A stretch of 64,000 bases of DNA. It comes from Ancylobacter oerskovii. GTDB taxonomy: Bacteria > Pseudomonadota > Alphaproteobacteria > Rhizobiales > Xanthobacteraceae. The notes beneath the pieces were generated by a model. That model had not been told where the DNA came from and ran no database searches. It saw only the letters and a program-made list of their open reading frames with translations. The DNA lies in contig NZ_JAHBGB010000031.1 in NCBI RefSeq assembly GCF_018390555.1, forward strand, positions 186,001 to 250,000. The letters are read 5' to 3'. Shown here one piece after another: positions 17,741 through 31,916 of this stretch. The stretch's first letter is position 1. Each line of letters begins with the position of its first letter. The position numbers and the translations under genes were made by a program.

Positions 17741-18301
17741 CTATTGCTTGCCGCCGGCCTCCGCATAGGCCTTCTGCAGCTTGTCGAGCTCCGGGCAGCC
17801 ATTCCGGCAGAAGATCTTCAAGGTGACGAGGTTCTCCTTCGCCTTGTCGAGCCTGCCGGTGGCGATGAACAATTCTCCTTGATATTCAATGGCCTGGCGA
17901 TGGGTGGGGTCGTAGTAGATCGCCTCGCGGTACCAGCGGTCGGCCTCGTCATAGCGCTTCAGCTGCCGCAGGCTGTAGCCCAGCAGGTTGAACACGTCGG
18001 CATGGCGCACCCGGGTGGCGAGACCGCCGAGCTCGGCGGCCGCTTTTTCGTAGTCCCCGGAATAGATTAGCGCGCGAATAGAGGCGAGATCCGGCAGCGC
18101 GTCGGAGGGCGGGGTGTCGACCGCCCCCGCCGTCGTCGCCGCCCCCAGAATCAGCGCGAGGACCCCCGCCCGGACGTGCCCGCCCCAGCCCCGCCGCGCG
18201 GTATGATGAGGTGTACGATGAGGCCGAATGCCGGGCCAAGGCGTCCGATCAGTGCGGAACGCCCCCCGCTCGGCATCGACGGGCATGGCAGGACCGCTCA
18301 T
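17741..18301 (-). CDS. Tetratricopeptide-repeat protein, exported or membrane-anchored
   Basis: Up to 186 residues with a hydrophobic signal-like segment (VRAGVLALILGAATTAGA, residues about 42-60) and two to three TPR units (ADVFNLLGYSLRQLKRYDEA, then EAIYYDPTHRQAIEYQGELF). Two cysteines near the C-terminus flank FCRNGC. The ATG at 18301 overlaps the stop of the ABC ATPase gene by 4 nt, and that coupling decides the start; the 40 polar residues before the hydrophobic segment make a shorter form possible. It is the last gene of the desulfinase/importer operon. Such exported TPR proteins of unknown role often close transport operons. Function unknown. Confidence 0.78.
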   Translation of the reverse strand: MSGPAMPVDAERGAFRTDRTPWPGIRPHRTPHHTARRGWGGHVRAGVLALILGAATTAGAVDTPPSDALPDLASIRALIYSGDYEKAAAELGGLATRVRHADVFNLLGYSLRQLKRYDEADRWYREAIYYDPTHRQAIEYQGELFIATGRLDKAKENLVTLKIFCRNGCPELDKLQKAYAEAGGKQ

Positions 18302-19074
18302 GCCGCCGCCACATGCACGGCGTAGTCGCCCATTTCGCGCAGGATCTCCCGCTTGATCCCCGCAAAGGCGGGGCTGCCGCGATCGCGCGGATGCGGCAGG
18401 TCGACGGCGATCTCCTTCACGATGCGGCCGGGATTGGCGGTCATCACCAGCACCCGGTCGCTGAGATAGATCGCCTCGTCGACGTCATGGGTGACGAGGA
18501 TCATGGTGGTCTTCTCCACCCGCCAGATGCTGAGCAGTTCCTCCTGCAGCCGCAGCCGCGTCAGCGCGTCGAGGGCGCCGAGCGGTTCGTCGAGCAAGAG
18601 GATCTCCGGCCGGCCGACCAGGCCGCGGGCGATGGCGGCGCGCTGCGCCATGCCGCCGGACAGCTGGTAGGGATAGACCTTCTCGAAGCCGCGCAGCCCG
18701 ACCAGCGCGATGTGCTCGGCGATGGTGCGCTTCTTCTCCTCGGCGGAGAGGCCGGCATTCTCCAGCCCGAGGCCGATATTCTGCTCCAGCGTCAGCCAGG
18801 GAAGCAGGCGATGGTCCTGGAAGACGATGCCGCGGTCGAGGCTGGTGCCGCGCACCGGTTCGCCATGCAGGCGAATGCTGCCGGAATAGTCGTCGTCGAG
18901 CCCGACGATGAGCCGCAATATGGTCGACTTGCCGCAGCCCGACGGCCCGACGATCGACACGAACTCGCCGGCGGCGACGTCGATGTCGATATGGTCGAGG
19001 ATCTTCAGCGGGCGACCGTCGACGTCGTAGTGCTTCTCGACGCCGCGGATTTCGAGATTGCCGCGTTGGGTCAT
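18298..19074 (-). CDS. Sulfonate/nitrate-type ABC importer ATPase (SsuB/TauB-like)
   Basis: A 258-residue ATPase. Walker A is GPSGCGKST (43-51), the signature is LSGGMAQRAAIARGL, Walker B is ILLLDEPLGALDALT and the switch is LVTHDVDEAIYLSDRV, all typical of the SsuB/TauB/NrtD group. VFQDHRLLPWLTLEQNI is the Q-loop region. The ATG overlaps the upstream desulfinase-like gene stop by 4 nt. It serves the permease at 21592-22437 and binding protein at 22509-23618, with the two desulfinase-like genes placed between components. The import of a sulfonate or sulfinate is the natural reading. Confidence 0.92.
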   Translation of the reverse strand: MTQRGNLEIRGVEKHYDVDGRPLKILDHIDIDVAAGEFVSIVGPSGCGKSTILRLIVGLDDDYSGSIRLHGEPVRGTSLDRGIVFQDHRLLPWLTLEQNIGLGLENAGLSAEEKKRTIAEHIALVGLRGFEKVYPYQLSGGMAQRAAIARGLVGRPEILLLDEPLGALDALTRLRLQEELLSIWRVEKTTMILVTHDVDEAIYLSDRVLVMTANPGRIVKEIAVDLPHPRDRGSPAFAGIKREILREMGDYAVHVAAA

Positions 19075-20150
19075 GAGGACAGGGACTCCAGGGCTTCGTC
19101 GAGATAGGAGGCGTCGGCCCAGGCGCGGCTGTCGAAATCGCGGCTGATGTAGCCGTGCTCGACGAGGAAGCGCTTCTGCAGGTCGATGCCGGCGAGCTTG
19201 CGCGGCGTCAGCGCCGGCAGGAAATCGGTGCCGGCGATGGCCGCCGCCGTATCGGCGACGTTCGGGTGATAGGTGACGCGGTGCAGGATCGCCGCGCCGG
19301 CCTCGCGATTGGCGTCGAGCCAGCGCGCCGCCCGCACCGCCGCCCGCAGGAAGGCGACGACGATGTCGCGGTTGGCCTTGGCGAAATCGGTGTTCACGGT
19401 AAGTGCATAGGGGCTGTTGGAGACCTGCAGCGACCAGTCGGGATGGCGGGAGAAATCCTCCACCTGCTTGAACCTGCCGGTCCGCTCCAGCCCCAGCGCC
19501 CGGCCATGGCTGGCGAAGATGGCGTCGACCTCGCCGGCTTCCAGCGCCCGCGCCTCCGGCGTGAAGACGAGGTCGCCGCGCCGCTTCGCCCACAGCGCCG
19601 AGGGACGCGACGCCTCTCCGAAGCCGCGGTCCTCATTGGCGATATCGTCGATCTCGACATCCGCTCGGGACAGGCCGGCCAATGCCAGCGCCTTCAGGAT
19701 GCCCTGCTCGGAGGTGGCCCGCCACCAGTCGATCTTGGCCGGGTTGGCGCTCTTCGACAGGCCGAAGCGCCGCCCCTTCAGCGCCGCGACGCTGCGGGCG
19801 GCATCGTCGGCCCGCACCACGATGGTGCCGCCGTGATGGGTTTCGGTGAGCCCGACCAGCGTGGTGTCGACATTGTCGGCCTTCGCCCAGATGGAGGGGA
19901 TGTTGCCGCCGTCGCGGAACAGATGCGCGAAGCGATGGCTGAAATGCGGGAGATAGCCCTGCTCGACGGGGAGCGCGCGCAGATAGGACAGCGAGGCGCC
20001 GACCCGGCGCAGCTCTTCCTCGATCCAGCCGAACTCCTGCGCGACATTGGACGCCACGAAGGTGGGGCAGATGGTGTACCAGGCCTCGCGGGCGCCGACG
20101 GTGATCGGGGCGAGCGCGGACGGGGTGGGGCGTTCGAGAAGATCGACCAT
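19071..20150 (-). CDS. DszB-like sulfinate desulfinase candidate 1 (binding-protein fold, no signal peptide)
   Basis: A 359-residue protein that automated annotation would likely call an ABC substrate-binding protein (NMT1/SsuA fold). It has no signal peptide, unlike the real binding protein of this operon. C28 (YTICPTFVASN), H69 and R79 (HFSHRFAHLFRDGG) and G82 fall where DszB of Rhodococcus has C27, H60, R70 and G73; the H-to-R and H-to-G distances (10 and 13) are identical. From memory, similarity continues to the C-terminus (KGRRFGLS against AGRRIGVS). DszB hydrolyses an aryl sulfinate to sulfite. The start is taken at 20150 (GGGGA upstream); an ATG at 20168 touching the previous stop is an alternative. 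The substrate is unknown. Confidence 0.72.
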   Translation of the reverse strand: MVDLLERPTPSALAPITVGAREAWYTICPTFVASNVAQEFGWIEEELRRVGASLSYLRALPVEQGYLPHFSHRFAHLFRDGGNIPSIWAKADNVDTTLVGLTETHHGGTIVVRADDAARSVAALKGRRFGLSKSANPAKIDWWRATSEQGILKALALAGLSRADVEIDDIANEDRGFGEASRPSALWAKRRGDLVFTPEARALEAGEVDAIFASHGRALGLERTGRFKQVEDFSRHPDWSLQVSNSPYALTVNTDFAKANRDIVVAFLRAAVRAARWLDANREAGAAILHRVTYHPNVADTAAAIAGTDFLPALTPRKLAGIDLQKRFLVEHGYISRDFDSRAWADASYLDEALESLSS

Positions 20151-20167
20151 GGTTTCCGTTCCCCGCA

Positions 20168-21253
20168 TCAGCCGCGCCGCAGCGAGGCAGAGGCCTCTTC
20201 CAGATAGGACGCATCCGCCCATTCATTCACGTCGACATCATTGGCGATGTAGCCGTGCGCGCGCAGGAAATCGGTCTCGAGCCGCAGGCCGGCGAGGTTC
20301 TGCGCCGACAGGTTCGGGATGAGGTCGTAGTCCGGCAGCGTGCGGGCGACGGCGTCGCGGTCGGCATAGATGGTGGTGCGGTAGAAGATGTCGGCCGCCG
20401 CCTCGGGATGGGCGTTGATCCAGCGCCCGGCGCGGATCGACGCACGCAGCCACGCCACCACGATATCGCGGTTCGCCTCGGCGAATTCGCGGCTCACGGT
20501 GAGGGTGCGCGGGGCGTTGGCGATGCGCAGCGTCCAATCGGGATAGCGGTCGAGATCCTCGATGACGCGGAAGCGGCCGGTCTGCGTCAGGCGGACATCG
20601 ACGCCGATGGAGTAGTCGTAGATGGCGTCGATGGTGCCGGCGTCGAGCGCGCGGGCTTCCAGCGTCAGCTCGTCCTGCCGCGAGGCGCGACGCTGCGCCC
20701 AGATGCCCGCGGGGGTCTCGGCCAGGCTTTCGGCATGGGCGTCGGCGTCCTCGATATCGACGATCTCGACATCGTTGCGGCCAAGGCCGTGCAGGGCGAG
20801 GGCGGCGAGGATGCCATGCTCGCCGGTGGCGCGGCGATGATCGATCTTCTCGTTGCGCAGGCTCCTGTAGAGGCCGAAGCGGCGGCCCTTGAGGTCCTCG
20901 ACGCGGTGAATGTCGGAATCGGTGCGCACCAGCACCTTGCCGGCCGGCTGCGCCTGGGTGAGGCCGAGCAGCACGGTGGGCCGCAGATCGGCCTTCGACC
21001 AGATGGCCGGGCTGTTGCCGCCGTCGCGGATGAGGCGGTCGGAATCGTGATTGTAGTGAGCCGGCCAGGCGACATCGGAGGCCGCCGAGCGCAGATAGGT
21101 GGGCTTCGCCCCGACGCGGGCGAGCTCGTCATGGATCCAGCCGAGCTCCAGCGCCACGTTGGACGCCACCAGCACCGGGCAGATGGTGTAGATGAGCTCG
21201 CGCAGCACCGGGGTGGCGTTGGCCTCTATCGAACGGTCGACGGCGATGGTCAT
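20168..21253 (-). CDS. DszB-like sulfinate desulfinase candidate 2 (paralogue)
   Basis: A 361-residue paralogue of the next gene, also without a signal peptide. The same catalytic set is present: C25 (YTICPVLVASN), H66 and R76 (HYNHDSDRLIRDGG) and G79. EDLKGRRFGLYRSL, RATGEHGILAALALHG and WADASYLEEA align with the sister protein. Two copies in tandem suggest different substrates or a heteromer. It begins at 21253; upstream is a 338-nt gap packed with palindromes. The stop overlaps the alternative start of the sister gene by one base. Assignment as a desulfinase rests on the conserved Cys/His/Arg/Gly set and full-length similarity recalled from DszB. A cytoplasmic ligand-sensing protein is the main alternative. 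Confidence 0.72.
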   Translation of the reverse strand: MTIAVDRSIEANATPVLRELIYTICPVLVASNVALELGWIHDELARVGAKPTYLRSAASDVAWPAHYNHDSDRLIRDGGNSPAIWSKADLRPTVLLGLTQAQPAGKVLVRTDSDIHRVEDLKGRRFGLYRSLRNEKIDHRRATGEHGILAALALHGLGRNDVEIVDIEDADAHAESLAETPAGIWAQRRASRQDELTLEARALDAGTIDAIYDYSIGVDVRLTQTGRFRVIEDLDRYPDWTLRIANAPRTLTVSREFAEANRDIVVAWLRASIRAGRWINAHPEAAADIFYRTTIYADRDAVARTLPDYDLIPNLSAQNLAGLRLETDFLRAHGYIANDVDVNEWADASYLEEASASLRRG

Positions 21254-21308
21254 GGCGGGGATCCTGAATGGGTGGGAGGAATGTTCGACGGTCGGGAGCC
21301 GCGCCGCC

Positions 21309-21429
21309 CCCTCACCCCACCCCTCTCCCCGACGGGGAGAGGGAGAAGAAGGGGGACGGTCGGCAGGCAGGGCGACGAACCACCGTGAGAGCCTCCCTCT
21401 CCCCGACGGGGAGAGGGCTGGGGTGAGGG
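21309..21429. repeat. Inverted pair of the dispersed palindromic repeat (copies 2 and 3)
   Basis: Two 35-nt units, 21309-21343 and 21395-21429, are inverted copies of each other (33 of 35 positions). Each contains the 23-nt palindrome also found at 372-394. The pair is separated by 51 nt and can fold into a long cruciform or RNA hairpin. It fills the gap between the permease gene and the desulfinase pair, so it may set differential expression within the operon. Confidence 0.8.
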
Positions 21430-21489
21430 GTCTTCGACGCCTCCCAATGGCGTCTCCCCTCACCGACCCGCTGCGCGGGCCACCTCTCC

Positions 21490-21553
21490 GTCGAAACCGG
21501 ATGTTTCCGGTTTCGACCTTGCCGGAACCGAACCCGGCAACAGCCGGGTTCGG
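21490..21553. repeat. Two adjacent perfect hairpins in the same gap
   Basis: The first hairpin is 21490-21501 against 21506-21517 (12-bp arms, 4-nt loop). The second is 21528-21538 against 21543-21553 (11-bp arms, 4-nt loop). Neither has a T tract on either strand. With the inverted pair next to it they make 21254-21591 an almost purely structural non-coding segment; I see no gene in it. Confidence 0.75.
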
Positions 21554-21591
21554 GCGGGGAGAGGATAAGTAAGAAGGGCGTGTGCCTTCCC

Positions 21592-22437
21592 TCACCCCTC
21601 GAAGCCCTGCTTCCAGCGCAGCACGAAGCGTTGCAGCCAGAGCATCAGCCGGTCGATGGCGAAGCCGACGAGGCCGATGATCACCATGCAGACGATGAGC
21701 TGGTCGGTGATGAGCAGGTTCTGGGCGCGGAAGATCAGGTAGCCGAGGCCCTCCTGCCCGCTCAAGCCTTCCGCCGTGACCACCAGCGCCCAGGCGACGC
21801 CGGCGGCGTAACGCAGGCTGACCATGATGCTGGGCACCGCGCTCGGGATCACCACCCGGCGGATCAGCTGCGAGCGGGTCAGCGTCAGCACCTTGGCGAG
21901 CTCGATATGGCTCTTCTCGACGTTGCGGATGCCCTGCAGCGTGTTGAGGAACACCGGGAAGAACACCGACTTGGCGATGACCAGGATCTGCGCGGGAGCG
22001 CCGAGGCCGAGCCACAGCACAATGAGCGGCAGCCAGGCGACGCCGGGGATGTGGCGGATGCTGTCGAAGGTCGGCCCGAAGAAGCGCTCGACATTCGAGG
22101 ACAGCCCCGCCGCCACGCCGAGCACCACCGCGGCGATCGAGCCATAGACGAAGGCCTGGCTGACGATGTTGATCGAGCGCAGGAAATCGACATGCAGCGA
22201 CTGGCGCGTGACCATGGCGACGAAGGCCTCGACCGTGGCGATCGGCGAGGGCAGGAACACCGCCGGCACCAGCACGTAATAGGTCGCCAGCGACCAGACG
22301 GCCAGCAGCCCGAGCGGCAGCACGGCGCCGATGTAGCGGCGCCCGGAGGCAGGACGGCGCGCCGCGCGGGTCGGGGACGGTGCCCGCGCCCCGGCCAGCG
22401 GGCGGACGGCGAAGGTGGAGTTGGTTGCGTCGGTCAT
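21592..22437 (-). CDS. Sulfonate/nitrate-type ABC importer permease (SsuC/TauC-like)
   Basis: A 281-residue inner-membrane permease with six hydrophobic segments after a 35-residue cytoplasmic leader. The binding-protein-dependent loop is IELAKVLTLTRSQLIRRVVIPSA, shown here in part as AKVLTLTRSQLIRRVVIPSA. SIRHIPGVAWLPLIVLWLGL is strongly typical of SsuC/TauC/NrtB permeases. The ATG at 22437 is 71 nt after the binding-protein stop. It works with the ATPase at 18298-19074. The ligand is probably an organosulfonate or related oxyanion judging from family and context. Confidence 0.92.
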   Translation of the reverse strand: MTDATNSTFAVRPLAGARAPSPTRAARRPASGRRYIGAVLPLGLLAVWSLATYYVLVPAVFLPSPIATVEAFVAMVTRQSLHVDFLRSINIVSQAFVYGSIAAVVLGVAAGLSSNVERFFGPTFDSIRHIPGVAWLPLIVLWLGLGAPAQILVIAKSVFFPVFLNTLQGIRNVEKSHIELAKVLTLTRSQLIRRVVIPSAVPSIMVSLRYAAGVAWALVVTAEGLSGQEGLGYLIFRAQNLLITDQLIVCMVIIGLVGFAIDRLMLWLQRFVLRWKQGFEG

Positions 22438-22508
22438 GATGCCGGCTCGCCTCTGGCGGCCGTCCCGGCGCGGGCACGCGGCCCCCGCCGGGACGGATCC
22501 GCGCTGTG

Positions 22509-23618
22509 TCAGTAGATGGAGTACGGACCGCCCTTGAAGAACTTGCCGTCCACGAAGGCGGTGATGTCCTGCTGGCTCAGCTTGCGGTCGGTGAACACGT
22601 CGTCGCCATGGGCGATGTACCAGTCCTGGAACTCGCTGATGGCGTGGCGGACATTGTCGGCCGAGGTGTCGCCGGCGATGAACTCGTAGCCCGAGGGATC
22701 GACGATCTGGAACTTCGCGATCTCCAGCGGCACGCGGGTGCCCTTGGAGATGATCTGCGCCGCCTCGTCCACATTGGCCTGGATCCAGGCGGTGGCGCGG
22801 CGATAGGAGATGAGGAACGCCTTCACCGCCTCGGGATATTTCTCGGCGAAATCGCGCATGGCGAAGAAGGAGACGCGGCCGGCGCCGTTCTCGTAGACGC
22901 CCTTCTCCACCGTGCGGCCGACGATCTTCACCTTGCCGGACAGATAGAGCGCGGCGCCGGAATTGTTGCCGATATGGGTGGCGAGGCCGTCCACCGCGCC
23001 GGATAGCAGCGCGGCGTTGCGGGCGCCGTTGTTCTCCACGCCCTCGTAGCGGATCTTGCCCTGCTTCAGGCGGGTGTCGAGCGGCAGGCCGGCGGCCTCG
23101 AAGGATTCGAACACCGAGGTGTAGGAGCAGCCGATGCGGTTGGAGCCGTAGACCTTGCCCTCCATGTCGGCGATGGAGTTGATCTCGTTATTGTCGGCGC
23201 GGGCCAGCAGCGGCGTGCGGTACTTGTTCGACGCCTCCGACACCCACACCACCACCGCGTCGAGGCCGTTGGCCCGGTGGGCGGTGGCGGGATAGAGCAT
23301 GCGCTGGGCGATGGCGATGGAGCCGCGGTTGAGGCCGGCGGATTCGGCGCCCGACAGCTCGGCGGCGCCGGAGGCGATCAGATTGACCTCCTTCACGCCG
23401 ACCTTGTCGAACTCCTCCTTGAAGATGCCCTTCTCCTGCGCCACCACCGACCAGGGGTTCAGCTGCAGGTTGATGAAGTCGAGCTGCTCCCCGGCGCTTG
23501 CCGGCGCCAGCGGGGCGGTGAGCGCCAGCGCGGCGGCAACCAGCGCCGCCCGGCCGAAATTCCTGCCAACGACCTTGCCGGGACCCCGCCCGACCGCCGC
23601 ATCCGACACGTTTTCCAC
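22509..23618 (-). CDS. SsuA/NMT1-type periplasmic binding protein
   Basis: A 369-residue binding protein with a real signal peptide (basic start, then LVAAALALTAPLAPASAG; cleavage near residue 43). The mature part starts LDFINLQLNPWSVVAQEKG, typical of the NMT1/SsuA/TauA group. The start is a GTG at 23618, chosen for the GGAGAC box just upstream; another GTG lies three codons in. It is the periplasmic partner of the permease and ATPase in the operon. This true exported binding protein makes the two leaderless homologues downstream stand out. The ligand is unknown; the organosulfur context suggests a sulfonate or sulfinate. Confidence 0.9.
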   Translation of the reverse strand: MENVSDAAVGRGPGKVVGRNFGRAALVAAALALTAPLAPASAGEQLDFINLQLNPWSVVAQEKGIFKEEFDKVGVKEVNLIASGAAELSGAESAGLNRGSIAIAQRMLYPATAHRANGLDAVVVWVSEASNKYRTPLLARADNNEINSIADMEGKVYGSNRIGCSYTSVFESFEAAGLPLDTRLKQGKIRYEGVENNGARNAALLSGAVDGLATHIGNNSGAALYLSGKVKIVGRTVEKGVYENGAGRVSFFAMRDFAEKYPEAVKAFLISYRRATAWIQANVDEAAQIISKGTRVPLEIAKFQIVDPSGYEFIAGDTSADNVRHAISEFQDWYIAHGDDVFTDRKLSQQDITAFVDGKFFKGGPYSIY

Positions 23619-23874: not shown

Positions 23875-24894
23875 CTAGGGGGCGCCGGCGAGTTCCGCGA
23901 CCGGCTCGGCCTCGAGGCCGGCGGCGGCGGCGATGAGCTCGAAGGAGCGCAGGCGCAGGGCGTGCTCATAGACATCCGAGACGACGATGAGCTCATCCGC
24001 GCCGGTCTCGGCGACCAGCGCCTCGAGGCCGGCGCGCACCGTCTCCGGCGAGCCGACGATGGAGCGGGCCAGCATGCGCATCGCCTGCGCCTTCTCCATC
24101 GGCGACCAGTACGTCTCGATGTCGTCGATCGGCGGCCGGCTGAGGCCGCGCGCGCCGCGGAAGATGTCGGCGAAGGACATTTGCTGCGTGGTCGCCAGCC
24201 GGCGCGCCTCGGCGTCGGTGGGGGCGGCGATGACATTGACGCCGACCATCGCATAGGGACGGTCGAGCTGCGCCGAGGGCTTGAAGCGCTCGCGGTAGAT
24301 GTCGAGCGCGGAGAGCAGCATTTCCGGCGCGAAATGCGAGGCGAAGGCATAGGGCAGGCCGAGCTCGGCGGCGAGCATGGCGCCGAAATTGCTGGAGCCG
24401 AGGATCCAGAGCGGCACCTCGGTGCCCGCCGCCGGCACCGCCTGGATGCGCTGGCCGGGCACGGTCGGCGCCAGGAAGGCCTGCAGCTCCAGCACGTCCT
24501 GCGGGAAGTTCTCGGCGGATTCATTGGTGCGGCGCAGGGCGCGCAACGTCGTCTGGTCGGTGCCCGGCGCCCGGCCGAGCCCGAGATCGACGCGGCCGGG
24601 GAACAGCCGCGCCAGCGTGCCGAACTGCTCGGCGATCACATAGGGCGAATGGTTGGGCAGCATGATGCCGCCGGCGCCCACCCGGATGCGCGACGCGCCG
24701 GCGGCGATGTGGGCGAGCACCACCGAGGTCGCGGCGCTGGCGATGCCCGGCATGTTGTGATGCTCGGCCACCCAGATGCGGTTGTAGCCCCAGTGCTCGG
24801 CGTGGCCCGCCAGGTCGCGGGCGTTGTCGAGCGCGCCCCGCGCATCGGTCGCCTCGGTGATGCGGACGAGGTCGAGAATGGACAATGGCGTCAT
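23875..24894 (-). CDS. Luciferase-like flavin monooxygenase, group 1 (MsnO8/YhbW family)
   Basis: A 339-residue TIM-barrel oxidoreductase of the bacterial luciferase group. The start SILDLVRI, then [40 protein letters not shown] and [12 protein letters not shown] are the MsnO8/YhbW (group 1) pattern, including the non-prolyl turn region. It uses reduced FMN and oxygen to oxidise a small substrate; family members are linked to methanesulfonate-type or thioether metabolism, but the reaction here is unknown. The ATG at 24894 follows GGGGAG. A TetR gene is divergent, and two operator palindromes lie between them. It leads the sulfur-like cluster on this strand. Confidence 0.9.
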
Positions 24895-24969
24895 GGGTTG
24901 CTCCCCGAGAACCGACTGCGGACGGCAGAGCGCGACGCCCCTTGCCTTCCAGATCATGCCTTCCAAAAA

Positions 24970-24984
24970 CGGAGATTGCCTCCA
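24970..24984. promoter_or_regulatory. TetR-type operator, site 1
   Basis: An imperfect 15-nt palindrome, CGGAGATTGCCTCCA, identical at 12 of 15 positions to site 2 at 25002-25016. The centres are 32 nt apart, about three helical turns, so two dimers could bind one face. It lies between the monooxygenase and the TetR gene. Confidence 0.65.
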
Positions 24985-25001
24985 TTTACATGGATGCTAT
25001 A

Positions 25002-25016
25002 TGGAGACTGTCTCCA
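25002..25016. promoter_or_regulatory. TetR-type operator, site 2, overlapping a likely promoter
   Basis: A perfect 7-1-7 palindrome, TGGAGAC-T-GTCTCCA. A TATATG hexamer (24998-25003), 16 nt after TTGCCT (24976-24981), could be the -10 and -35 of the TetR gene, and both hexamers touch the operators. This fits autoregulation plus control of the divergent monooxygenase. Confidence 0.7.
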
Positions 25017-25049
25017 CATTCCGTCAACAGGGGCGAGCGGCGAAAGCGC

Positions 25050-25658
25050 ATGGATACCGATGTCGTGAGCGGCGAACCGTCCCGGCTGCGCGCCGATGCG
25101 CGGCGCAACCGTGAGCGCATCCTGCGCGCGGCGATGCGGCGCTTCGCGGCTGAGGGTATCGACGCCTCGCTCGACGACATCGCCCGCGAGGCGGAGGTCG
25201 GGGCGGGCACGCTCTACCGCCATTTCCCCTCCCGCGAGGCGCTGCTGGCCGCAGCGCTGCAGGACCGGCAGAAGGAGCTGCTGGCGCAGGCGCAGCAGGC
25301 GCGGGCGATCGCCGATTCCGGCGCCGCGCTCGGTGCCTGGCTCACGGCGCTGCAGGACTATCTGCGCAGCTTCAACGGCCTGCCGGCGCCGGTGCTGGCG
25401 GCGGTGAAGGAGCAGGAATCGCCGCTCTGCCTCTCCTGCAACGCGCTGGTGTCGCTGACCGACGAGTTCCTCCGCCGCGCGCAGCGGGACGGGCATGCCC
25501 GGCCGACGGTATCGGCGAACGAATTGTTCCTGAGCGCGCTGGGCCTCGCCTGGGTGCTGAACCGGGCGGAGGCCTGCGGCACCACGCGGCAGGCGCTGGA
25601 GAAGGTGCTGGCGCATGGCTATCTGGCGCCGGCCGGCGAAGGCGCCGCACCGGGCTGA
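25050..25658 (+). CDS. TetR-family regulator of the divergent monooxygenase
   Basis: A 202-residue repressor. The N-terminal helix-turn-helix covers residues about 14-60 (RRNRERILRAAMRRFAAEG, then IAREAEVGAGTLYRHFPSRE, the TetR pattern). The C-terminal part is a ligand-sensing helical domain with CLSCNALVS (two cysteines). The ATG at 25050 is chosen because the frame before it spans the operator region. It is divergent from the luciferase-like gene, and the two palindromes between them are its probable binding sites. The inducer is unknown. Confidence 0.9.
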   Translation: MDTDVVSGEPSRLRADARRNRERILRAAMRRFAAEGIDASLDDIAREAEVGAGTLYRHFPSREALLAAALQDRQKELLAQAQQARAIADSGAALGAWLTALQDYLRSFNGLPAPVLAAVKEQESPLCLSCNALVSLTDEFLRRAQRDGHARPTVSANELFLSALGLAWVLNRAEACGTTRQALEKVLAHGYLAPAGEGAAPG

Positions 25659-25667
25659 ACGCGGCGC

Positions 25668-26447
25668 TCAGCCGTCCCGCCCGATATAGGCCGCCGGCGG
25701 CGCGCCGAGGATGCGCTTGAACATCGCGGTGAAGGCCGCCGGGTTGTCATAGCCGAGATCGATGGCCACCGCCGTCACCGGATGCCCGGCCGCGAGGCGC
25801 GGCAAGGCCGCCATCACGCAGGCCTGCTGGCGCCAGGCGACGAAGCTGAGGCCGGTTTCCCGGCGGAACAGCCGGGTGAAGGTACGCCGGCTCATGCCGA
25901 CCGCCTCGCTCCAGCTATCGATGCGCGCATGCGGCGTCGGCGCATGCAGGAAGGCGCGGCAGAGGCCGGCCAGCGCCTTGCTGCCGGGAAGCGGCAGCGA
26001 CAGCGGCAAGGCCGGCAGGCGCGGAATCTCGTGCTGGACCAAGGCCATCAGCGCGCCATCGCGTCCTCGCGGGTCATATTCCGCCGGCACGAATACCGCC
26101 TCGGCCAGAAGGCTGCGCATCAGGGGCGTGATGCCCAGCACCTGACAGTGCCCGGGCATGCCGGTGATGACGCCCGGCTCGACATAGAGGCTGCGCATCC
26201 GCACCATGCCCATGATGCGCACATCGTGCACCACGCCGGCCGGAATCCACATGCCTCGCTCCGCCGGCATCACCCAGGCGCCGCCGGCGGTGGCCAGCAG
26301 CACCACCCCGGTGGAGCCGTAGAGAAGCTGGTCGCGCCGGTGCCAGTGCGGCTCGATGACATGCCCGTCCGGGTAATCGCGCCCCAGCGCGATCACCGGG
26401 CGCGCCACCTCCGTGAAGGCGCGTTCGACGCCATCGCTCGATCTCAT
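25668..26447 (-). CDS. AraC-family regulator with N-terminal cupin domain
   Basis: A 259-residue regulator. Residues about 10-110 form a cupin-like sensor (GHVIEPHWHRRDQLLYG, then WVMPAERGMWIPAGVVHDV, with several metal-site His). Residues about 160-255 hold two helix-turn-helix units (MSRRTFTRLFRRETGLSFVA and AIDLGYDNPAAFTAMFKRIL). The start is the ATG at 26447. It is divergent from the Fsr-like exporter, which it probably controls. An imperfect inverted repeat at 26458-26480 could be its site. A longer in-frame extension overlaps the exporter gene and is rejected. Confidence 0.9.
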   Translation of the reverse strand: MRSSDGVERAFTEVARPVIALGRDYPDGHVIEPHWHRRDQLLYGSTGVVLLATAGGAWVMPAERGMWIPAGVVHDVRIMGMVRMRSLYVEPGVITGMPGHCQVLGITPLMRSLLAEAVFVPAEYDPRGRDGALMALVQHEIPRLPALPLSLPLPGSKALAGLCRAFLHAPTPHARIDSWSEAVGMSRRTFTRLFRRETGLSFVAWRQQACVMAALPRLAAGHPVTAVAIDLGYDNPAAFTAMFKRILGAPPAAYIGRDG

Positions 26448-26561
26448 TGGCCCACTCGCGTAAGAATTTGACCTTAACGCAGTAGCGGGCCGCATTCCAT
26501 CGGCTAAGACAGCGGCAGCGCCCCTGCCGCCCGCGGCGCGAACCAGAGTGAGCGTTTCGCC

Positions 26562-27758
26562 ATGTCCGACATCACCGCCGACCGCACGCCGCAAAGCCGC
26601 GCCGCCTATCTGGTGCTCGGCGCCGCCGGCCTGTGCCACCTGCTGAACGACATGCTGCAATCGCTCTTCATCGCGGCCTATCCGCTGTTCAAGAGCAATT
26701 TCGACCTCAACTACGCGCAGATCGGCCTGCTGACGCTGGTGTACAACGTCACCGCCTCGCTGCTGCAGCCGATGGTGGGGCTCTACACCGACCGGCGGCC
26801 GCAGCCCTATTCGCTGCCCTTCGGCATGGGCATGTCGCTGCTGGGGCTGCTGGTGCTCGCCTTCGCCGGCTCGTTCGCCGCGCTGATGGTGGGGGCGGTG
26901 CTGCTCGGCATCGGCTCCTCGATCTTCCACCCGGAATCCTCGCGCATCGCCCGGCTCGCCTCCGGCGGCGCCTATGGGCTGGCGCAATCGACCTTCCAGG
27001 TCGGCGGCAATATCGGCAGCGCGCTCGGGCCGCTGCTGCTCGCCGCCTTCGTGCTGCCGCGCGGGCAGACCAGCCTCGCCTGGTTCACCCTGGCGGCGCT
27101 GGGCGGCATCATCCTGCTGACCGGCCTCGGCAGCTGGTACAAGGCCAACGGGCATGCGCGCCCGCATGGCGGCCCCTCCACCCTCATTCCTCGCTTCAGC
27201 CGGCGCAAGGTCGGCGGCGCCATCACGATCCTGGTCTGCCTGCTGCTGTCGAAATGGTTCTATCTCGCCAGCTTCACCAGCTTCTACGTCTTCTACCTGA
27301 TGCAGCATTTCGGGGCGTCGGAGGAGCAGGCGCAGTTCTACCTGTTCGTCTTCCTCGCCGCCGTCGCGGTGGGCACGCTGATCGGCGGCCCGCTGGGCGA
27401 CCGCATCGGCCGCAAGGCGATCATCTGGGCCTCGATCTTCGGCGTGCTGCCCTTCTCGCTGGTGCTGCCGCATGTGGGGCTGACGGCGACGCTGGCGCTG
27501 AGCGTGGTGATCGGCCTCATCCTGGCGTCGGCCTTCTCCGCCATCGTCGTCTATGCGCAGGAGTTGATGCCGGGCCGCGTCGGCATGGTGTCGGGCCTGT
27601 TCTTCGGCCTGGCCTTCGGGCTCGGCGGCATCGGCGCCGCGCTGCTGGGGGTGCTGGCCGACTGGACCAGCATCGGCTTCGTCTTCCAGGCCTGCGCCTT
27701 CCTGCCGGCGATCGGCATCCTCGCCGCCTTCCTGCCCAACATCGAGGCGCGCAAATAG
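26562..27758 (+). CDS. MFS exporter of the fosmidomycin-resistance (Fsr) type
   Basis: A 398-residue inner-membrane transporter with 12 hydrophobic segments. LGAAGLCHLLNDMLQSLFIA and FHPESSRIARLASGG are hallmarks of the Fsr group, and GGPLGDRIGRKAIIWASI is the loop 8-9 motif. Members export antibiotics or small phosphonates; the native ligand here is unknown. The divergent AraC-type cupin regulator suggests inducible expression. The start at 26562 has only a weak ribosome site (GAGTGAG, 10 nt upstream). Confidence 0.88.
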   Translation: MSDITADRTPQSRAAYLVLGAAGLCHLLNDMLQSLFIAAYPLFKSNFDLNYAQIGLLTLVYNVTASLLQPMVGLYTDRRPQPYSLPFGMGMSLLGLLVLAFAGSFAALMVGAVLLGIGSSIFHPESSRIARLASGGAYGLAQSTFQVGGNIGSALGPLLLAAFVLPRGQTSLAWFTLAALGGIILLTGLGSWYKANGHARPHGGPSTLIPRFSRRKVGGAITILVCLLLSKWFYLASFTSFYVFYLMQHFGASEEQAQFYLFVFLAAVAVGTLIGGPLGDRIGRKAIIWASIFGVLPFSLVLPHVGLTATLALSVVIGLILASAFSAIVVYAQELMPGRVGMVSGLFFGLAFGLGGIGAALLGVLADWTSIGFVFQACAFLPAIGILAAFLPNIEARK

Positions 27759-27783: not shown

Positions 27784-28233
27784 TCAGAACGGCAGGACGG
27801 TCCGCGACGATAGCACCTCCATCGAGAAACGGGAGGTCACGTTCTTGGGCGAGGCGCCCTCGATGAGGCGGTTGTAGAAATCGTCATAGGCCTGCATGTC
27901 CGGCACCACGACCCGCAGCAGGTAATCGATGTCGCCGGCCATGCGGTAGGAATCCATCACCTCCGGCATGGACTGCACGAGGCGGCGGAAATTCGCCGCC
28001 CATTCGCGGCTGTGGTTGACCGCTTCCACCGCCACGAAGGCGGTGAGGCCGAGGCCGACCTTGCGCGAATCCACCAGCGCCACCCGGCCCTTGATGATGC
28101 CTTCCGCCTCCATCTTGCGGATGCGGTTCCAGCACGGCGTCTGCGACAGGTTCACCAGCCGCGCGATCTCGGCGATCGGCTTGGAGGCGTCGGCCTGCAG
28201 GATACGCAGGATCTTGTGGTCGATCTTGTCCAT
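27784..28233 (-). CDS. Lrp/AsnC-family regulator
   Basis: A 149-residue regulator. The N-terminal winged helix (MDKIDHKILRILQADASKP, then LVNLSQTPCWNRIRKMEAEG) is the Lrp pattern. The C-terminal RAM/AsnC ligand domain has MPEVMDSYRMAGDIDYLLRV. It lies 43 nt after the nitroreductase gene on the same strand, so it may be cotranscribed with the flavin-enzyme operon. Lrp proteins usually sense amino acids and control transport or catabolism. The target here is inferred only from position. Confidence 0.92.
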   Translation of the reverse strand: MDKIDHKILRILQADASKPIAEIARLVNLSQTPCWNRIRKMEAEGIIKGRVALVDSRKVGLGLTAFVAVEAVNHSREWAANFRRLVQSMPEVMDSYRMAGDIDYLLRVVVPDMQAYDDFYNRLIEGASPKNVTSRFSMEVLSSRTVLPF

Positions 28234-28276
28234 CAGCCATTCCGGCCCGCCCCGGCGATCCGCAGGGGTGGTCTTG

Positions 28277-29137
28277 TCATTTGAACGGGAAGCCCAGCGT
28301 CTCGAGCTGGCGGCGCAATATGTGGCGGCCCTTGAGCGAGGCGACCGCATGCAGGCGCTGCAGCGCCAGCCGCGTCCAGGGCGTGGCGTCGAGCCCCTGC
28401 TCGGCGCGGAAGGCGAGCGCGTGGGCATCGGCGCGGGCGAGCACATCCTCCTCGCCGGCGGTGGAATAGACGTCGCGATGCAGGATGCCGGGCTGCGGGA
28501 GGCGCGGCTTGACGTCGCTCGCCACCGCCGGTTCCGGCCGGCCGATGGCGAGGCCCACCACGGCATAGGAGCGCGGCGGCAGCTTCAGGAGATGCGCGAC
28601 CGCCGCGGCGTCGTTGCGCAGCGCGCCGATATAGACCGCGCCGAGGCCGAGCGATTCCGCCGCGGTGAGCGCGTTCTGCGCCGCGAAGGCGGCGTCGAGC
28701 GAGGCGATGAGGAAGCTTTCGGTATAGTCCAGCCCCTCGGTGGTCAGCCCCTCGCGCTCGGCAAGGCGCTGCACCCGCGACAGGTCGGCAACGAAGACCA
28801 GGAACAGGCCGGCGGTCTCGATGTGCTTCTGCCCGCCGGCGATCTGCGCGAGCTTCGCCCGCAGCGCCGGGTCCTCCACGGAGACGAGGCTCCAGGCCTG
28901 GACGTTGGACGAGGACGGCGCCGACTGCGCCGCCGCCAGCAGCACCTCCAGCGTGCCTTCCGCCAGCGGCTCCGCCGAGAAGGCGCGCACCGAGCGGTGG
29001 CCGAGCAGCACCGACAGCGTCTCGCTCCAGGGCAGCGCGGCGGGACTGGAGGCGACCGGCTCGCGATAGCGCTTGTCCAGCGCCGCCGGGGCGGCCTCGG
29101 CGTCGCGGAAGCGGCCGGCAGGTGTGATCTCGTTCAT
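28277..29137 (-). CDS. Nitroreductase-family flavin oxidoreductase (NfsA/FRP-like)
   Basis: A 286-residue FMN enzyme. HRSVRAFSAEPLAEGTLEVL and AAQSAPSSSNVQAWSLVSV form the FMN-binding start, and ESLGLGAVYIGALRND the dinucleotide/FMN region of the NfsA/FRP subgroup. These enzymes reduce FMN or nitro compounds with NADPH. Placed in one operon with a two-component-type FMN monooxygenase, it is a good candidate for the flavin reductase that feeds it, a role played by DszD in dibenzothiophene desulfurisation. The start at 29137 follows GGAGACGG. The length is typical for the subgroup (about 240-290). Confidence 0.87.
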   Translation of the reverse strand: MNEITPAGRFRDAEAAPAALDKRYREPVASSPAALPWSETLSVLLGHRSVRAFSAEPLAEGTLEVLLAAAQSAPSSSNVQAWSLVSVEDPALRAKLAQIAGGQKHIETAGLFLVFVADLSRVQRLAEREGLTTEGLDYTESFLIASLDAAFAAQNALTAAESLGLGAVYIGALRNDAAAVAHLLKLPPRSYAVVGLAIGRPEPAVASDVKPRLPQPGILHRDVYSTAGEEDVLARADAHALAFRAEQGLDATPWTRLALQRLHAVASLKGRHILRRQLETLGFPFK

Positions 29138-29159: not shown

Positions 29160-30566
29160 TCACGCGACCTGGCGGACCGCCGCCATGTCCGCCCGCACGA
29201 GGACCGCGGCCAGCCGGGTCGCCTGGGCGATCTGCTCGTTGAGCGAGCTGGCCTCGAAAAATTCGCCCCGCAGCGGATGGCCGACCGCGAACAGCGTATC
29301 GGAAATGCGGCCGTCCATGTCGATCAGCGCCTGCGTCGCGCGGTCGGCGCGGATGCCGGCACCCACCGGATGAGGCACGGCGAGGCCGCGGCGCAGCAGG
29401 TTCTTCACCAGCGGGTCGTCGATACGCGTCCAGTCGAACTCGAAGCCGAGGCTGCCCACCGCCAGATCGGCCTCGATGGGAAACGGCGCACCGCCGCCGC
29501 GCGGGCGCAGCGTCGCGCGCAGGCCGTCACCCGCCTCGTCAAGCCGGGTGACGGAGCCGGCGAGGCTGTGCACCCGCCCCTCGGCCCGCGCCCGCGCGAG
29601 GAAGGCGAAGGACGGCGCCGCCGCCCGGTGCATGGCGAGGTTCCAGAACGGCAGCAGGCGATGCAGCAGCCTGGCGCGGTCACGGTCGGCGAGACCGGCC
29701 CAGATCGCCCCCACATGCTGGCGGAACAGCGGCGGCAGGCTCTGCCAGTCGCGGCCCGCCGCGGCGGCGGCCCGGCGCTCGCGGCGGATCCAGCCGAGCA
29801 CCTCGCCGGCATTGCGCGGCAATTCGGCCGCCTGCGGCGTGCCCGGCCACGGCGCCACCTCGCGGCGCAGCGGCACCAGGAGGCCGCTGCGGGAGACGAG
29901 GGTGTAGCGGCCGCGAAAGCCCCGCTTCTCCAGGCTGACCACCGCATCGAGCATCGACAGGCCGGCGCCGAGCAGCAGCACATGGCCGGCCCGCTCCGCC
30001 CCCTCGAAAGCACCGGGAGCGAACGGGTCCGCCACAAAGGCGGGATGGGCGGCGAGGCCGGCCCCGAGCGCCGGCCGCCGGCGATGCAGCCCGGTGGCCA
30101 GCACCACCCGCCCGGCGGCGAGCGAGGCGCCGGAGGCCAGCGTCACCACGCGGCCGTCGAAATCCACCGCCCGGTCGCGGCGATGGACGAGGCGCACCCG
30201 CTCGCCGGCGCGGGCGGCGGCGTTGAGGAGCTCCCGCTCGACATAGGCGCCGTAGAGCGCGCGTGGCGGCGAGGCCTGCGCGAGGTCGTCGACCGACGGC
30301 GCCCAGCGCCCCGCTTCCGCCTCGGCCGCCAGCCATTCGAGGAAGTGCTCCGGCCGGTCCGCATGCAGGGCGAAGCCGCCGGCGAAGCCGTTGACCGTAT
30401 GGTCGGGCTCGCCGGTGGCATAGGCGATGCCGCGGCCGAGCCGCGCGGGATCGACGAGGGTGAGATCGAGCTGCCCGGTGCTGGCGGCGATGAGCCGCAG
30501 CGCCGTCACCGCCCCGGCGAAGCCACCGCCGAGTATGGCGACGCTCTGGATATGCGCGGTCGTCAT
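29160..30566 (-). CDS. FAD/NAD(P)-binding protein (NAD_binding_9 / COG4529 type)
   Basis: A 468-residue flavoprotein. VAILGGGFAGAVTALRLIA is the N-terminal FAD-binding Rossmann motif (GxGxxG), with LGRGIAYAT and DHTVNGFAGGFALHADRP following, and VLLLGAGLSMLDAVVSLEKR the second dinucleotide-binding fold. This arrangement matches the NAD_binding_9 group. No reaction is established for most members. It begins 3 nt after the DszA-like gene and ends 22 nt before the nitroreductase, so the three form one operon. A role in supplying or regenerating an oxidised substrate of the monooxygenase is possible but unproven. Confidence 0.85.
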   Translation of the reverse strand: MTTAHIQSVAILGGGFAGAVTALRLIAASTGQLDLTLVDPARLGRGIAYATGEPDHTVNGFAGGFALHADRPEHFLEWLAAEAEAGRWAPSVDDLAQASPPRALYGAYVERELLNAAARAGERVRLVHRRDRAVDFDGRVVTLASGASLAAGRVVLATGLHRRRPALGAGLAAHPAFVADPFAPGAFEGAERAGHVLLLGAGLSMLDAVVSLEKRGFRGRYTLVSRSGLLVPLRREVAPWPGTPQAAELPRNAGEVLGWIRRERRAAAAAGRDWQSLPPLFRQHVGAIWAGLADRDRARLLHRLLPFWNLAMHRAAAPSFAFLARARAEGRVHSLAGSVTRLDEAGDGLRATLRPRGGGAPFPIEADLAVGSLGFEFDWTRIDDPLVKNLLRRGLAVPHPVGAGIRADRATQALIDMDGRISDTLFAVGHPLRGEFFEASSLNEQIAQATRLAAVLVRADMAAVRQVA

Positions 30567-30569
30567 CGA

Positions 30570-31916
30570 TCAGGCGCTGGCGCGCAGGGAGCGGCCGGCG
30601 AAGCGGCTCTCGGGACGCGGCAGACCGTAATGGTCGCGTAGCGTGGTCCCGCTGTATTCGGTACGGAACAGGCCGCGCTTGCGCAGCAGCGGCACGACCT
30701 CCTGCGCGAAGGCGTCGAAGCCGCCGGTCAGCCAGGGCGGCATGATGTTGAAGCCGTCGGCGGCGCCGTTCTCGAACCAGAGCTGGATCTCGTCGGCGAT
30801 GCGCTCCGGCGTGCCGGCGAGGACGAAATGCCCGCGCCCGCCGGCCAGCCGGTTGATGAGCTGGCGGATGCTCGGATTTTCGCGATCGAGAATGCCGACG
30901 ATGAGCTGGAAGCGGCTCGCCGCGCCGATGTTGCCGTCAATGTCGAGCAGATGGCGCGGGAACGGGCCGTCGAGATCGTAGCCGGACAGGTCGATGCCGG
31001 TCATGCGCTTCAGCTGGCCCAGCGAATATTCCGGCTGGATGAGATCGTTGAACTCCTCCTCCAGCGCCTTCGCCTCCGCCTCGGTGGAGCCGATGAACGG
31101 GCTGAGGCCGGGCAGCACCTTGATGTGCTCCGGCCGGCGGCCGAGCGCGACGGCGCGCGACTTGATGTCGGCGTAGAAGGCCTGCGCGCTGCCGAGCGTC
31201 TGGTGCGCGGTGAAGATCGCCTCGGCATATTGCGCGGCGAAGGAGCGGCCATCCTCCGAGGAGCCGGCCTGCACATAGACCGGGCGCCCCTGCGGCGTGC
31301 GCGGGGCGTTGAGTGGGCCCTTCACCTTGAAGTGCTTGCCGATATGCTCGATGGCGTGGATGCGGTCGGTATCGGCGAACAGGCCGGACGCCTGGTCGGC
31401 GAGGACGGCCCCGTCCTCCCAGCTGTCCCACAGCTTGGTGACCACCTCGACGAATTCGCGGCTCTTCTCGTAGCGCTCGGCATGCACGGGATGCTCGACG
31501 AGGCCGAAATTCTGCGAGGCGGCGGCCTGCGAGGTGGTGACGATGTTCCAGCCGGCGCGGCCATGGCTGAGATGGTCCAGCGAGGCGAACAGCCGGGCGA
31601 GGTTGTAGGGCTCGTTATAGGTGGTCGAGGCGGTGGCGATCAGCCCGATATGCGACGTCACCGCGCCGATGGCGGCGAGCCAGGTGATCGGCTCCACCCG
31701 GTAGCGGGCGGCGTAGCGGATATTGTCGGCGAGCACCGGGCCGTCGGCGAAGAACAGCGAGTCGATGGTGGCCGCCTCGGCCCGCTTCGCGAGGTCCTGG
31801 TAATAGGCGATGTCGTTGAGACGGGCGATGTCGGTGCCCTTGTAGCGCCAGGCGGCCTCATGATGCCCGCCGGGATAGACGAAGAGGTTGAGGGACAATT
31901 GGCGGCGCTGGCTCAT
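30570..31916 (-). CDS. FMN-dependent monooxygenase, NtaA/SnaA/DszA family
   Basis: A 448-residue class C flavin monooxygenase. LNLFVYPGGHHEAAWRYKG at the start, SLFFADGPVLADN, LDHLSHGRAGWNIVTTSQ and YVQAGSSEDGRSFAAQYAE are typical of the NtaA/SnaA/DszA group. Members use reduced FMN and oxygen on aminopolycarboxylates, thioethers or sulfones; DszA opens a cyclic sulfone to give a sulfinate. With two DszB-like proteins 10 kb away and a flavin reductase in the operon, oxidation of an organosulfur compound is attractive. An alternative is thioether cleavage like the Bacillus YxeK/YtnJ enzymes. The start at 31916 follows AGGGTGAAG. Confidence 0.9.
   Translation of the reverse strand: MSQRRQLSLNLFVYPGGHHEAAWRYKGTDIARLNDIAYYQDLAKRAEAATIDSLFFADGPVLADNIRYAARYRVEPITWLAAIGAVTSHIGLIATASTTYNEPYNLARLFASLDHLSHGRAGWNIVTTSQAAASQNFGLVEHPVHAERYEKSREFVEVVTKLWDSWEDGAVLADQASGLFADTDRIHAIEHIGKHFKVKGPLNAPRTPQGRPVYVQAGSSEDGRSFAAQYAEAIFTAHQTLGSAQAFYADIKSRAVALGRRPEHIKVLPGLSPFIGSTEAEAKALEEEFNDLIQPEYSLGQLKRMTGIDLSGYDLDGPFPRHLLDIDGNIGAASRFQLIVGILDRENPSIRQLINRLAGGRGHFVLAGTPERIADEIQLWFENGAADGFNIMPPWLTGGFDAFAQEVVPLLRKRGLFRTEYSGTTLRDHYGLPRPESRFAGRSLRASA

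Follow-up and report, generated by a model that had tools for sequence, protein, structure and literature searches.

Why an importer operon should hold, besides an exported substrate-binding protein (SBP), two leaderless proteins of the same fold is the question raised by a 64,000-nucleotide stretch of the Ancylobacter oerskovii genome (assembly GCF_018390555.1, contig NZ_JAHBGB010000031.1, positions 186,001 to 250,000), referred to below as the window. The two proteins, A and B, are 49% identical and are encoded by adjacent genes:

20168 to 21253, minus strand: protein A, a DszB-family protein of SBP fold, 361 amino acids, with C25, H66, R76, and G79; C25 is its sole Cys, and there is no Met past the start
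19071 to 20150, minus strand: protein B, a second DszB-family protein, 359 amino acids from the chosen start, with C28, H69, R79, and G82; C28 is its sole Cys, and there is no Met past the start

The original prediction, made by a model from the sequence of the window, was that both carry the active site of the sulfinate desulfinase DszB. We consider it probable that A and B are cytoplasmic proteins of the DszB branch acting as cofactor-free sulfinate desulfinases of a sulfur-scavenging operon.

The C27, H60, R70, and G73 residues of DszB align with C25, H66, R76, and G79 of A and with C28, H69, R79, and G82 of B. In these HMMER alignments the Arg falls at His+10 and the Gly at His+13 in both proteins, the spacing of H60, R70, and G73 that the original prediction had pointed to, along with a Cys at residue 25 (A) or 28 (B). 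When all PDB sequences were searched with phmmer, DszB was the top match of A (E value 2.2e-9), with DszB entries only at E<1, and likewise the top match of B (5.3e-5), followed by SsuA (0.007). A profile of 10 relatives matched DszB at 1.6e-33 versus 2.8e-6 for the best SsuA. Profile positions 12 to 351 aligned on DszB residues 19 to 363, which bears out the proposal that the similarity reaches the C terminus. The suggested alignment check, made with single sequences and with the profile, thus leaves DszB as the best solved relative of A and B.

Structure prediction gave a similar picture. The AF2 models (pLDDT of 86.1 for A and 92.2 for B), searched against PDB with Foldseek, returned the DszB structures 2de3/2de2 as the first three matches, with TM-scores of 0.69 to 0.76, and then SsuA. 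The E values of A and B were 1.7e-19 and 7.3e-18 against DszB and 4.5e-15 and 3.7e-15 against SsuA. Because the models match the DszB fold with the four residues aligned, we argue that Cys, His, Arg, and Gly would cluster in space in both proteins. The active-site His lies within a helix in the models (residues 64 to 68 of A and 62 to 71 of B); passages of a study of DszB describe a loop, residues 55 to 62, that turns helical on substrate binding and brings H60 into the site (PMC6100217). Sequence and models together support assigning A and B to the DszB branch of SBP-fold proteins, with its active site kept. The same searches bear on a different kinship, with the THI5/NMT1 hydroxymethylpyrimidine (HMP) phosphate synthase or with SBP-fold decarboxylases, which would place A and B in vitamin or aromatic metabolism. 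Pfam NMT1 matches both proteins above its cut-off, and Thi5 and 4,5-dihydroxyphthalate decarboxylase are among the fold-search matches; however, Thi5 stands far below DszB and SsuA (1.7e-12, against 1.7e-19 for DszB), the closest solved relative by sequence and by fold is DszB and not Thi5, and the sulfur-poor composition given below indicates sulfur starvation. We regard this kinship as very improbable.

The cellular location was judged from the N termini. The start of A was placed at the ATG at 21253 (minus strand), although the mechanical open reading frame (ORF) opens earlier, at 22477; in three relatives from the genus (G022, G024, and G027) the ORFs open at an identical MTIAV. The start of B, the ATG at 20150 (minus strand), is our choice: the mechanical ORF opens at 20222, 20168 is also possible, and the earliest opening of the frame in G004 and G024 is MRGTE, six codons before the chosen start. 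Starting B at 20222 would add 24 residues, including two more Cys (in total 3 Cys and 2 further Met), and starting it at 20168 would leave it with 1 Cys and add a single Met. By a simple Kyte-Doolittle score, which is the sole basis of the leader call and was taken before the Cys in A and B and over the first 60 residues in the SBP, the best 11-residue means were 0.77 for A and 1.16 for B versus 2.34 for the SBP of the cluster, in agreement with the predicted lack of a leader in A and B only; B read from 20222 scored 1.48. None of the 105 family members whose Cys precedes residue 45 scored above 2.0, versus 14 of 17 SBPs of such gene cassettes. A and B thus appear to be cytoplasmic.

Conservation was followed in a family set of 138 ORFs above 150 bits, drawn from named genomes and further relatives; the 21 SBP hits, which scored below 75 bits, stood apart. 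The named-genome scan had given 252 pattern matches and 233 relatives, the best 80 of 233 being kept. Merging three duplicates left 135 distinct sequences; truncated L051 and L078 stand outside the residue counts, and 133 cover the site. Among these the Cys is kept in 131 (Ser in 2), the His in 129 (Asp in 4), and the Arg and the Gly in all 133, with the full set of four in 128. The scan pattern held R.GGN, so that Arg and Gly are biased in seeded copies. In the copies outside pattern seeding all four residues are present in 50 of 55, and Arg plus Gly in 55 of 55; this count leaves out five copies that are themselves seeds or match a seed exactly (L082_2984, L083_9028, L089_9025, L037, and L031), all with the four residues. 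A profile-only search of 398 genomes from the phylum yielded 12 more copies, spread over 6 genomes; 8 of the 12 have all four residues. The remaining 4 are second members of tandem pairs in related genomes (L120 to L123, in G789, G495, G566, and G491) and read YTHSP, with Ser replacing Cys. By comparison, Cys, His, or Arg was found at the site in 0 of 47 SBP-type proteins from the same loci (the Cys column being a gap in 15 and the His column in 28), and 31 of the 47 have a clear leader by score. A third homologue in the genome (C20, 90216 to 90944) was rejected as a desulfinase because it is a leader-bearing SBP whose site shows none of Cys, His, and Arg.

In a mixture-model tree of 47 rows, the family and DszB split from 18 SBP-type proteins with support of 100/99. 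Two subclades were distinguished: YTI, in which the Cys follows Ile or Leu and which has 50 members including A and B (support of 85 in a quick tree and 76/78 in the 47-row tree), and its sister YTR, with mostly Arg before the Cys and 83 members (97 and 99/96). The quick tree sampled 35 of the 83 YTR members, and the 47-row tree 14 of the 83 YTR and 14 of the 50 YTI members. DszB sits on a long branch outside both subclades in the 47-row tree, a placement (85/84) that is not secure.

The composition of the proteins is a further line of evidence. A and B each have a single Cys, the putative catalytic one, and 0 Met past the start versus 11 sulfur residues expected (P of ∼1.5e-4 each, with B read from 20150); the background rate came from ten window proteins, with 95 sulfur residues in 3,058, of which the AraC-type protein is approximate. 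Counted from the motif onward, the catalytic Cys is the only Cys in 41 of 50 YTI members, which have a median of 0 Met and 0.30% sulfur residues (median) versus 2.3% in neighboring ORFs, and in 68 of 83 YTR members (0.60% versus 2.0%). Locus genes were greedy longest-ORF calls, and some false antisense ORFs are included, also in the neighbor background. Residues 22 to 359 of DszB itself include a single Cys and no Met, and low sulfur content is remarked on for the 4S enzymes in passages of another study (PMC8557817). From the near absence of Met and Cys, taken as an independent sign, we infer that the A and B genes are expressed under sulfur starvation, and the retention of one Cys in a nearly sulfur-free protein supports the view that this Cys is indispensable. 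These data also bear on whether A and B might be catalytically dead cytoplasmic ligand binders that sense or carry the imported compound. Their SBP fold would fit that role, a few paralogues lack the Cys or the His, and a clear leader is also missing from some SBP-type neighbors of cluster c4 (by score, 17 of 30 carry one). The role is nevertheless improbable in view of the 128 of 133 relatives that keep the four residues, set against 0 of 47 neighboring SBP-type proteins, and of the retention of the single Cys in proteins that have shed almost every other Cys and Met.

Automatic annotation conceals these proteins, as had been anticipated. Among 30 plasmid relatives listed of 89, 12 had a feature annotated at the matching position, named "ABC transporter substrate-binding protein" in 11 and "soxB: monooxygenase" in 1. 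Apart from Pfam NMT1, the curated names that match A and B do so below cut-off, namely SsuA_fam for both and PRK11553 for B only. The SsuA_fam cut-off of 163.5 bits is missed by A (72.2), by B (66.6), and also by the SBP of the cluster (71.4).

A and B sit between the ABC permease and ABC ATPase genes, downstream of the gene for the leader-bearing SBP, all on the minus strand, so that the predicted flanking by importer components was confirmed. The surrounding genes are as follows:

17741 to 18301, minus strand: small TPR protein adjoining the ATPase gene, present in three same-genus relatives and in the fourth by cluster
18298 to 19074, minus strand: ABC ATPase of sulfonate/nitrate/taurine type, whose own start overlaps the stop of B
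21592 to 22437, minus strand: ABC permease of sulfonate/taurine type
22509 to 23618, minus strand: SBP with a hydrophobic leader and an SsuA_fam match below cut-off
23875 to 27758, no strand assigned: putative insert with an MsnO8-family luciferase-like monooxygenase (LLM) protein and TetR, AraC-type, and MFS genes, missing from four relatives between the Lrp and SBP genes
27784 to 28236, minus strand: Lrp/AsnC-type regulator, adjoining the SBP gene in 4 of 4 same-genus relatives
28277 to 29137, minus strand: nitroreductase-family protein, a candidate flavin reductase, with 0 Cys and 0 Met past the start
29160 to 30566, minus strand: FAD/NAD(P)-binding protein, sulfur-poor, with 0 Cys and 4 Met
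30570 to 31916, minus strand: NtaA/DmoA-family FMN-dependent monooxygenase, above the curated cut-off, with 0 Cys and 2 Met

The four relatives (G004, G022, G024, and G027) are all the same-genus relatives with these genes, which were found in 5 of 30 genomes of the genus, the A. oerskovii genome counted. In all four the genes for the NtaA/DmoA monooxygenase, FAD protein, nitroreductase, Lrp regulator, SBP, permease, A, B, and ATPase are contiguous, except that B is missing in G022 and the FAD protein is in two pieces in G027. The window holds the same gene set, but ∼4 kb with the LLM, TetR, AraC-type, and MFS genes lies between Lrp and SBP. Because this stretch (23875 to 27758) is missing at that place in the four relatives, we judge it to be an insertion outside the system. 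The MsnO8-type LLM protein was accordingly ruled out as the partner oxygenase, its gene being absent there in 4 of 4 relatives and its sulfur content an ordinary 2.65%. The Lrp, LLM, and MFS proteins are not sulfur-poor, the permease and ATPase are intermediate, and the SBP (1 Cys, 2 Met) is sulfur-poor, as are the monooxygenase, nitroreductase, and FAD protein. The gap between the permease gene and A (21253 to 21592, ∼340 bases) contains a 38-nt inverted repeat, 21308 to 21345 and 21393 to 21430, with CCCTCTCCCCGACGGGGAGAGGG present twice. The same gap is 38 bases in G022, and the repeat is possibly a small palindromic insertion within the operon. A selenoprotein-linked transport system (SAO) was considered for the importer and rejected: SaoA and SaoP are the top NCBIfam hits of the ATPase and the permease, both below cut-off (258 of 360 and 172 of 295 bits), and the SaoB and SaoX families, substrate-binding selenoproteins according to passages of a review (PMC13188914), did not match A or B at E 0.001.

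A reaction sequence can be proposed for this operon. An organosulfur anion would be imported by the exported SBP, the permease, and the ATPase, and in this genus the DszA/NtaA-type FMN monooxygenase would make a sulfinate from it, with reduced flavin perhaps supplied by the adjacent nitroreductase. The sulfinate would be bound by A, B, or both in a pocket containing the Arg and a Gly-Gly, and sulfite would be freed by the single Cys, as in DszB, for which calculations favor concerted electrophilic substitution by the proton of Cys27 and the C27S variant is inactive (PMC6100217, in part). Sulfite would then go into cysteine synthesis, a sulfite-reductase-like gene being linked in some relatives. 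Where relatives have no oxygenase found, the sulfinate might be imported ready made or the first step might differ. For the window monooxygenase the matches are YtnJ/MoxC (1.3e-99), NtaA (3.1e-99), and DszA (5tlc; 3.2e-96). Its gene lies ∼9 kb from A and B, and there is no dszA-dszC operon as in the 4S pathway of DszB in the strict sense (EC 3.13.1.3). NtaA/DmoA-cluster genes occur at 29 of 57 YTR loci, and 10 of 42 such genes are within 15 bases of a DszB-like gene; the locus count leaves out L047, L051, L071, and L094, and the clusters are single-linkage BLAST groups of which only representatives were scanned.

Both copies could be retained because they act on distinct substrates or because they assemble into a heteromer. 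The larger quick tree puts A and B into separate starred sets, each with Opitutaceae copies, and the pair therefore seems older than the genus; both are unstarred in the smaller, careful tree. One Opitutaceae locus holds six copies. Adjacent pairs recur in several phyla, and those of Lachnospiraceae and of Paenibacillus/Amazonia seem, in the quick tree only, to have arisen separately. One member of the pair might be the enzyme and the other an allosteric or stabilizing partner, an arrangement that is compatible with desulfinase activity and overlaps with it in likelihood. Pairs do recur in unrelated lineages, and the second copy has Ser for Cys in the four related genomes mentioned above; however, both window proteins keep every active-site residue, and G022 carries A without B, so that we find this division of labor conceivable but rather doubtful. 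Since G022 has A alone and one copy has lost the Cys in other lineages, two active partners are not a strict requirement in general.

Outside the genus, the YTI cassette, consisting of an SBP, one or two DszB-like proteins, a permease, and an ATPase, occurs whole or cut by contig ends across several phyla, in Spartobacteria, Lachnospiraceae, Paenibacillus, Amazonia, Treponema, Synergistaceae, Omnitrophica, and Margulisbacteria. Among 299 sampled Lachnospiraceae, the center genome alone carried the family, which is therefore rare and patchy there. Members of PF00296, to which SsuD, DszA, and NtaA belong, turned up in 3 of 12 chosen genomes (Paenibacillus, Devosia, and a Verrucomicrobium). Seven of the other nine are metagenome-assembled genomes (MAGs) and possibly incomplete; Uliginosibacterium and Amazonia are not titled MAG. 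The samples of 12 genomes and, below, of 15 were our own choice.

Several observations weigh against the desulfinase assignment. A and B are only 21 to 24% identical to DszB, and the role of the YTI members as desulfinases is deduced from residues and fold. The window monooxygenase is as close to YtnJ, an enzyme that acts on thioethers, as to DszA; there is no PF08028 (DszC-type) gene within the window; and an NtaA/DmoA-cluster gene is present at only 5 of 29 YTI loci. Some lineages carry a copy in which Ser replaces the Cys or Asp the His. The sulfite-reductase-like and O-acetylhomoserine (OAH)-sulfhydrylase-like proteins of relatives fall below the NCBIfam cut-offs (best hit TIGR02912, 156 of 324 bits, for the former and 446 of 495 bits for the latter). 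Finally, in an oxygenase search that comprised PF00296 and PF02668 only, the 12 chosen YTI genomes yielded no luciferase-like monooxygenase in 9 and no TauD in 12, and the sulfinate-making step therefore misfits most of these relatives. This last result, together with the same cassette in anaerobic lineages, radical SAM-type genes beside it at four YTI loci and L072, and a nearby sulfite-reductase-like gene in 5 of 15 chosen genomes, would suit a different chemistry, in which A and B cleave the C-S bond of a nonsulfinate class such as a sulfonate and the DszB-type Cys performs a related, new, oxygenase-free reaction. DszB, however, has a sulfinate as its substrate (PMC6100217, in part), the possible incompleteness of the MAGs and the two-family search qualify the missing oxygenases, and sulfinates could arrive ready made by import. 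We hold such a new reaction to be unlikely and continue to favor sulfinate desulfination.

With respect to the product, a sulfite-reductase-like gene lies 4 to 9 kb from the DszB-like gene in the five genomes just counted, four Lachnospiraceae (G800, G801, G802, and G805, which are related and not independent) and the deltaproteobacterium G1110, whose protein at locus L072 reads LTRCP and was counted with YTR. The gene is on another contig in G804, G806, and G807, and the remaining chosen genomes gave weak matches or none. Within locus reach, the OAH-sulfhydrylase cluster is present at 5 of the 5 sulfite-reductase loci and the MoeB cluster at 4 of 5. Because these genes are linked in relatives, sulfite is the likely product. 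A broader reading is that the cassette carries out oxygen-independent, cofactor-free sulfite release from an imported organosulfur anion in several phyla, rumen anaerobes included, with the A and B types working paired as a heteromer or in consecutive steps and rhodococcal DszB being a specialized offshoot; we offer it tentatively, as possible though not likely. The radical SAM-type genes near the cassette are at L043 3713 to 5005, L048 1624 to 3075, L072 3223 to 4608, L049 3831 to 5081, and L052 7177 to 8427. They were called from clusters c40 and c63 by one representative each, that of c63 falling just under the Pfam cut-off, and it is possible that they replace the oxygenase in such loci. 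On a plasmid of Rhizobium leguminosarum ATCC 14479 (L140, 5436 to 10864), a DszB-like gene, 42% identical to A and with the four residues kept by eye, is flanked by two 2-hydroxyacyl-CoA dehydratase-type (HGD-D-type) and two BadF/BcrA-type activase genes. Genes for rhodanese and sulfate permease are close by; in strain 22B the DszB-like gene has other neighbors. A low-potential reductase may partner the desulfinase in ATCC 14479.

Known systems resemble this one in part. DszB shares with A and B full-length homology, the fold, C27/H60/R70/G73, the RxGG motif, and one Cys, but it stands on a separate long branch at the low identity given above, and A and B lie beside an ABC importer with no dszABC operon. 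The alkanesulfonate- and taurine-binding proteins SsuA and TauA have the fold, ancestry, and NCBIfam/Pfam names in common with A and B but are exported and lack the active site, judged by the 47 SBP-type neighbors examined. BdsA of Gordonia terrae C-6 (PMC3868597) and peg4802 of Rhodococcus IGTS8 (PMC8557817) are, in the passages on them, organosulfur-induced DszB-type proteins whose locus tags fall among sulfonate-type ABC and flavin monooxygenase genes. Those passages term bdsA a desulfinase, its operon converting benzothiophene when expressed in E. coli (PMC3868597), and list the IGTS8 "SsuA/DszB" protein as changed on dibenzothiophene among ssu-type genes (PMC8557817). Both belong to the Actinomycetota and are likened to A and B by description, not by sequence. 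In Rhodobacter capsulatus, the isethionate reductase IsrBHDK and SsuCAB form a separate precedent for anaerobic sulfonate assimilation: sulfur is taken from an imported organosulfur anion independently of oxygen, involving a radical SAM protein and an ABC importer. The reductase is a nitrogenase-like enzyme, and the passages on it do not mention a DszB-like protein (PMC11423573). Within open-licence PMC, no title or abstract among the matches listed concerned DszB-type proteins in anaerobes or in pairs, the term "DszB-like" was absent, and the "desulfinase" of a rumen paper belongs to the cysteine sulfinate desulfinase/cysteine desulfurase group (PMC5114307).

What appears to be new here is a multi-phylum, nearly sulfur-free, often paired DszB-type family with members in anaerobic lineages. 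DszB is described as the slow step in microbial fuel desulfurization in passages of PMC6100217, and a large misnamed family sharing its active site would supply many natural variants for study. Genomes in which these proteins now pass for transporter components would also gain a sulfur-assimilation enzyme, and, if the anaerobic members work, they would cut C-S bonds without oxygen or cofactor. One Cys kept with nearly all other sulfur removed offers a cheap marker for further members and partner genes.

Some other gene clusters near the DszB-like genes were recorded. Cluster c21 occurs near the cassette at L043, L044, L048, L049 (for example, 443 to 1846), L052, and L072. One of its proteins gave a Porin_O_P hit and another no Pfam family, and 4 of 5 YTI copies have 0 Cys and 0 Met past the start. 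Class II aldolase-like proteins of cluster c11, found near DszB-like genes at L083 (8280 to 9017) and 11 further loci, have 0 Cys in 10 of 11 YTR copies and 0 to 2 Met in all, and are likely a further part of the pathway. Small PNPOx_N-type proteins of cluster c60, encoded directly before the DszB-like gene at L043 (7340 to 7843) and L048 (5291 to 5752), have 0 Cys and 0 to 1 Met.

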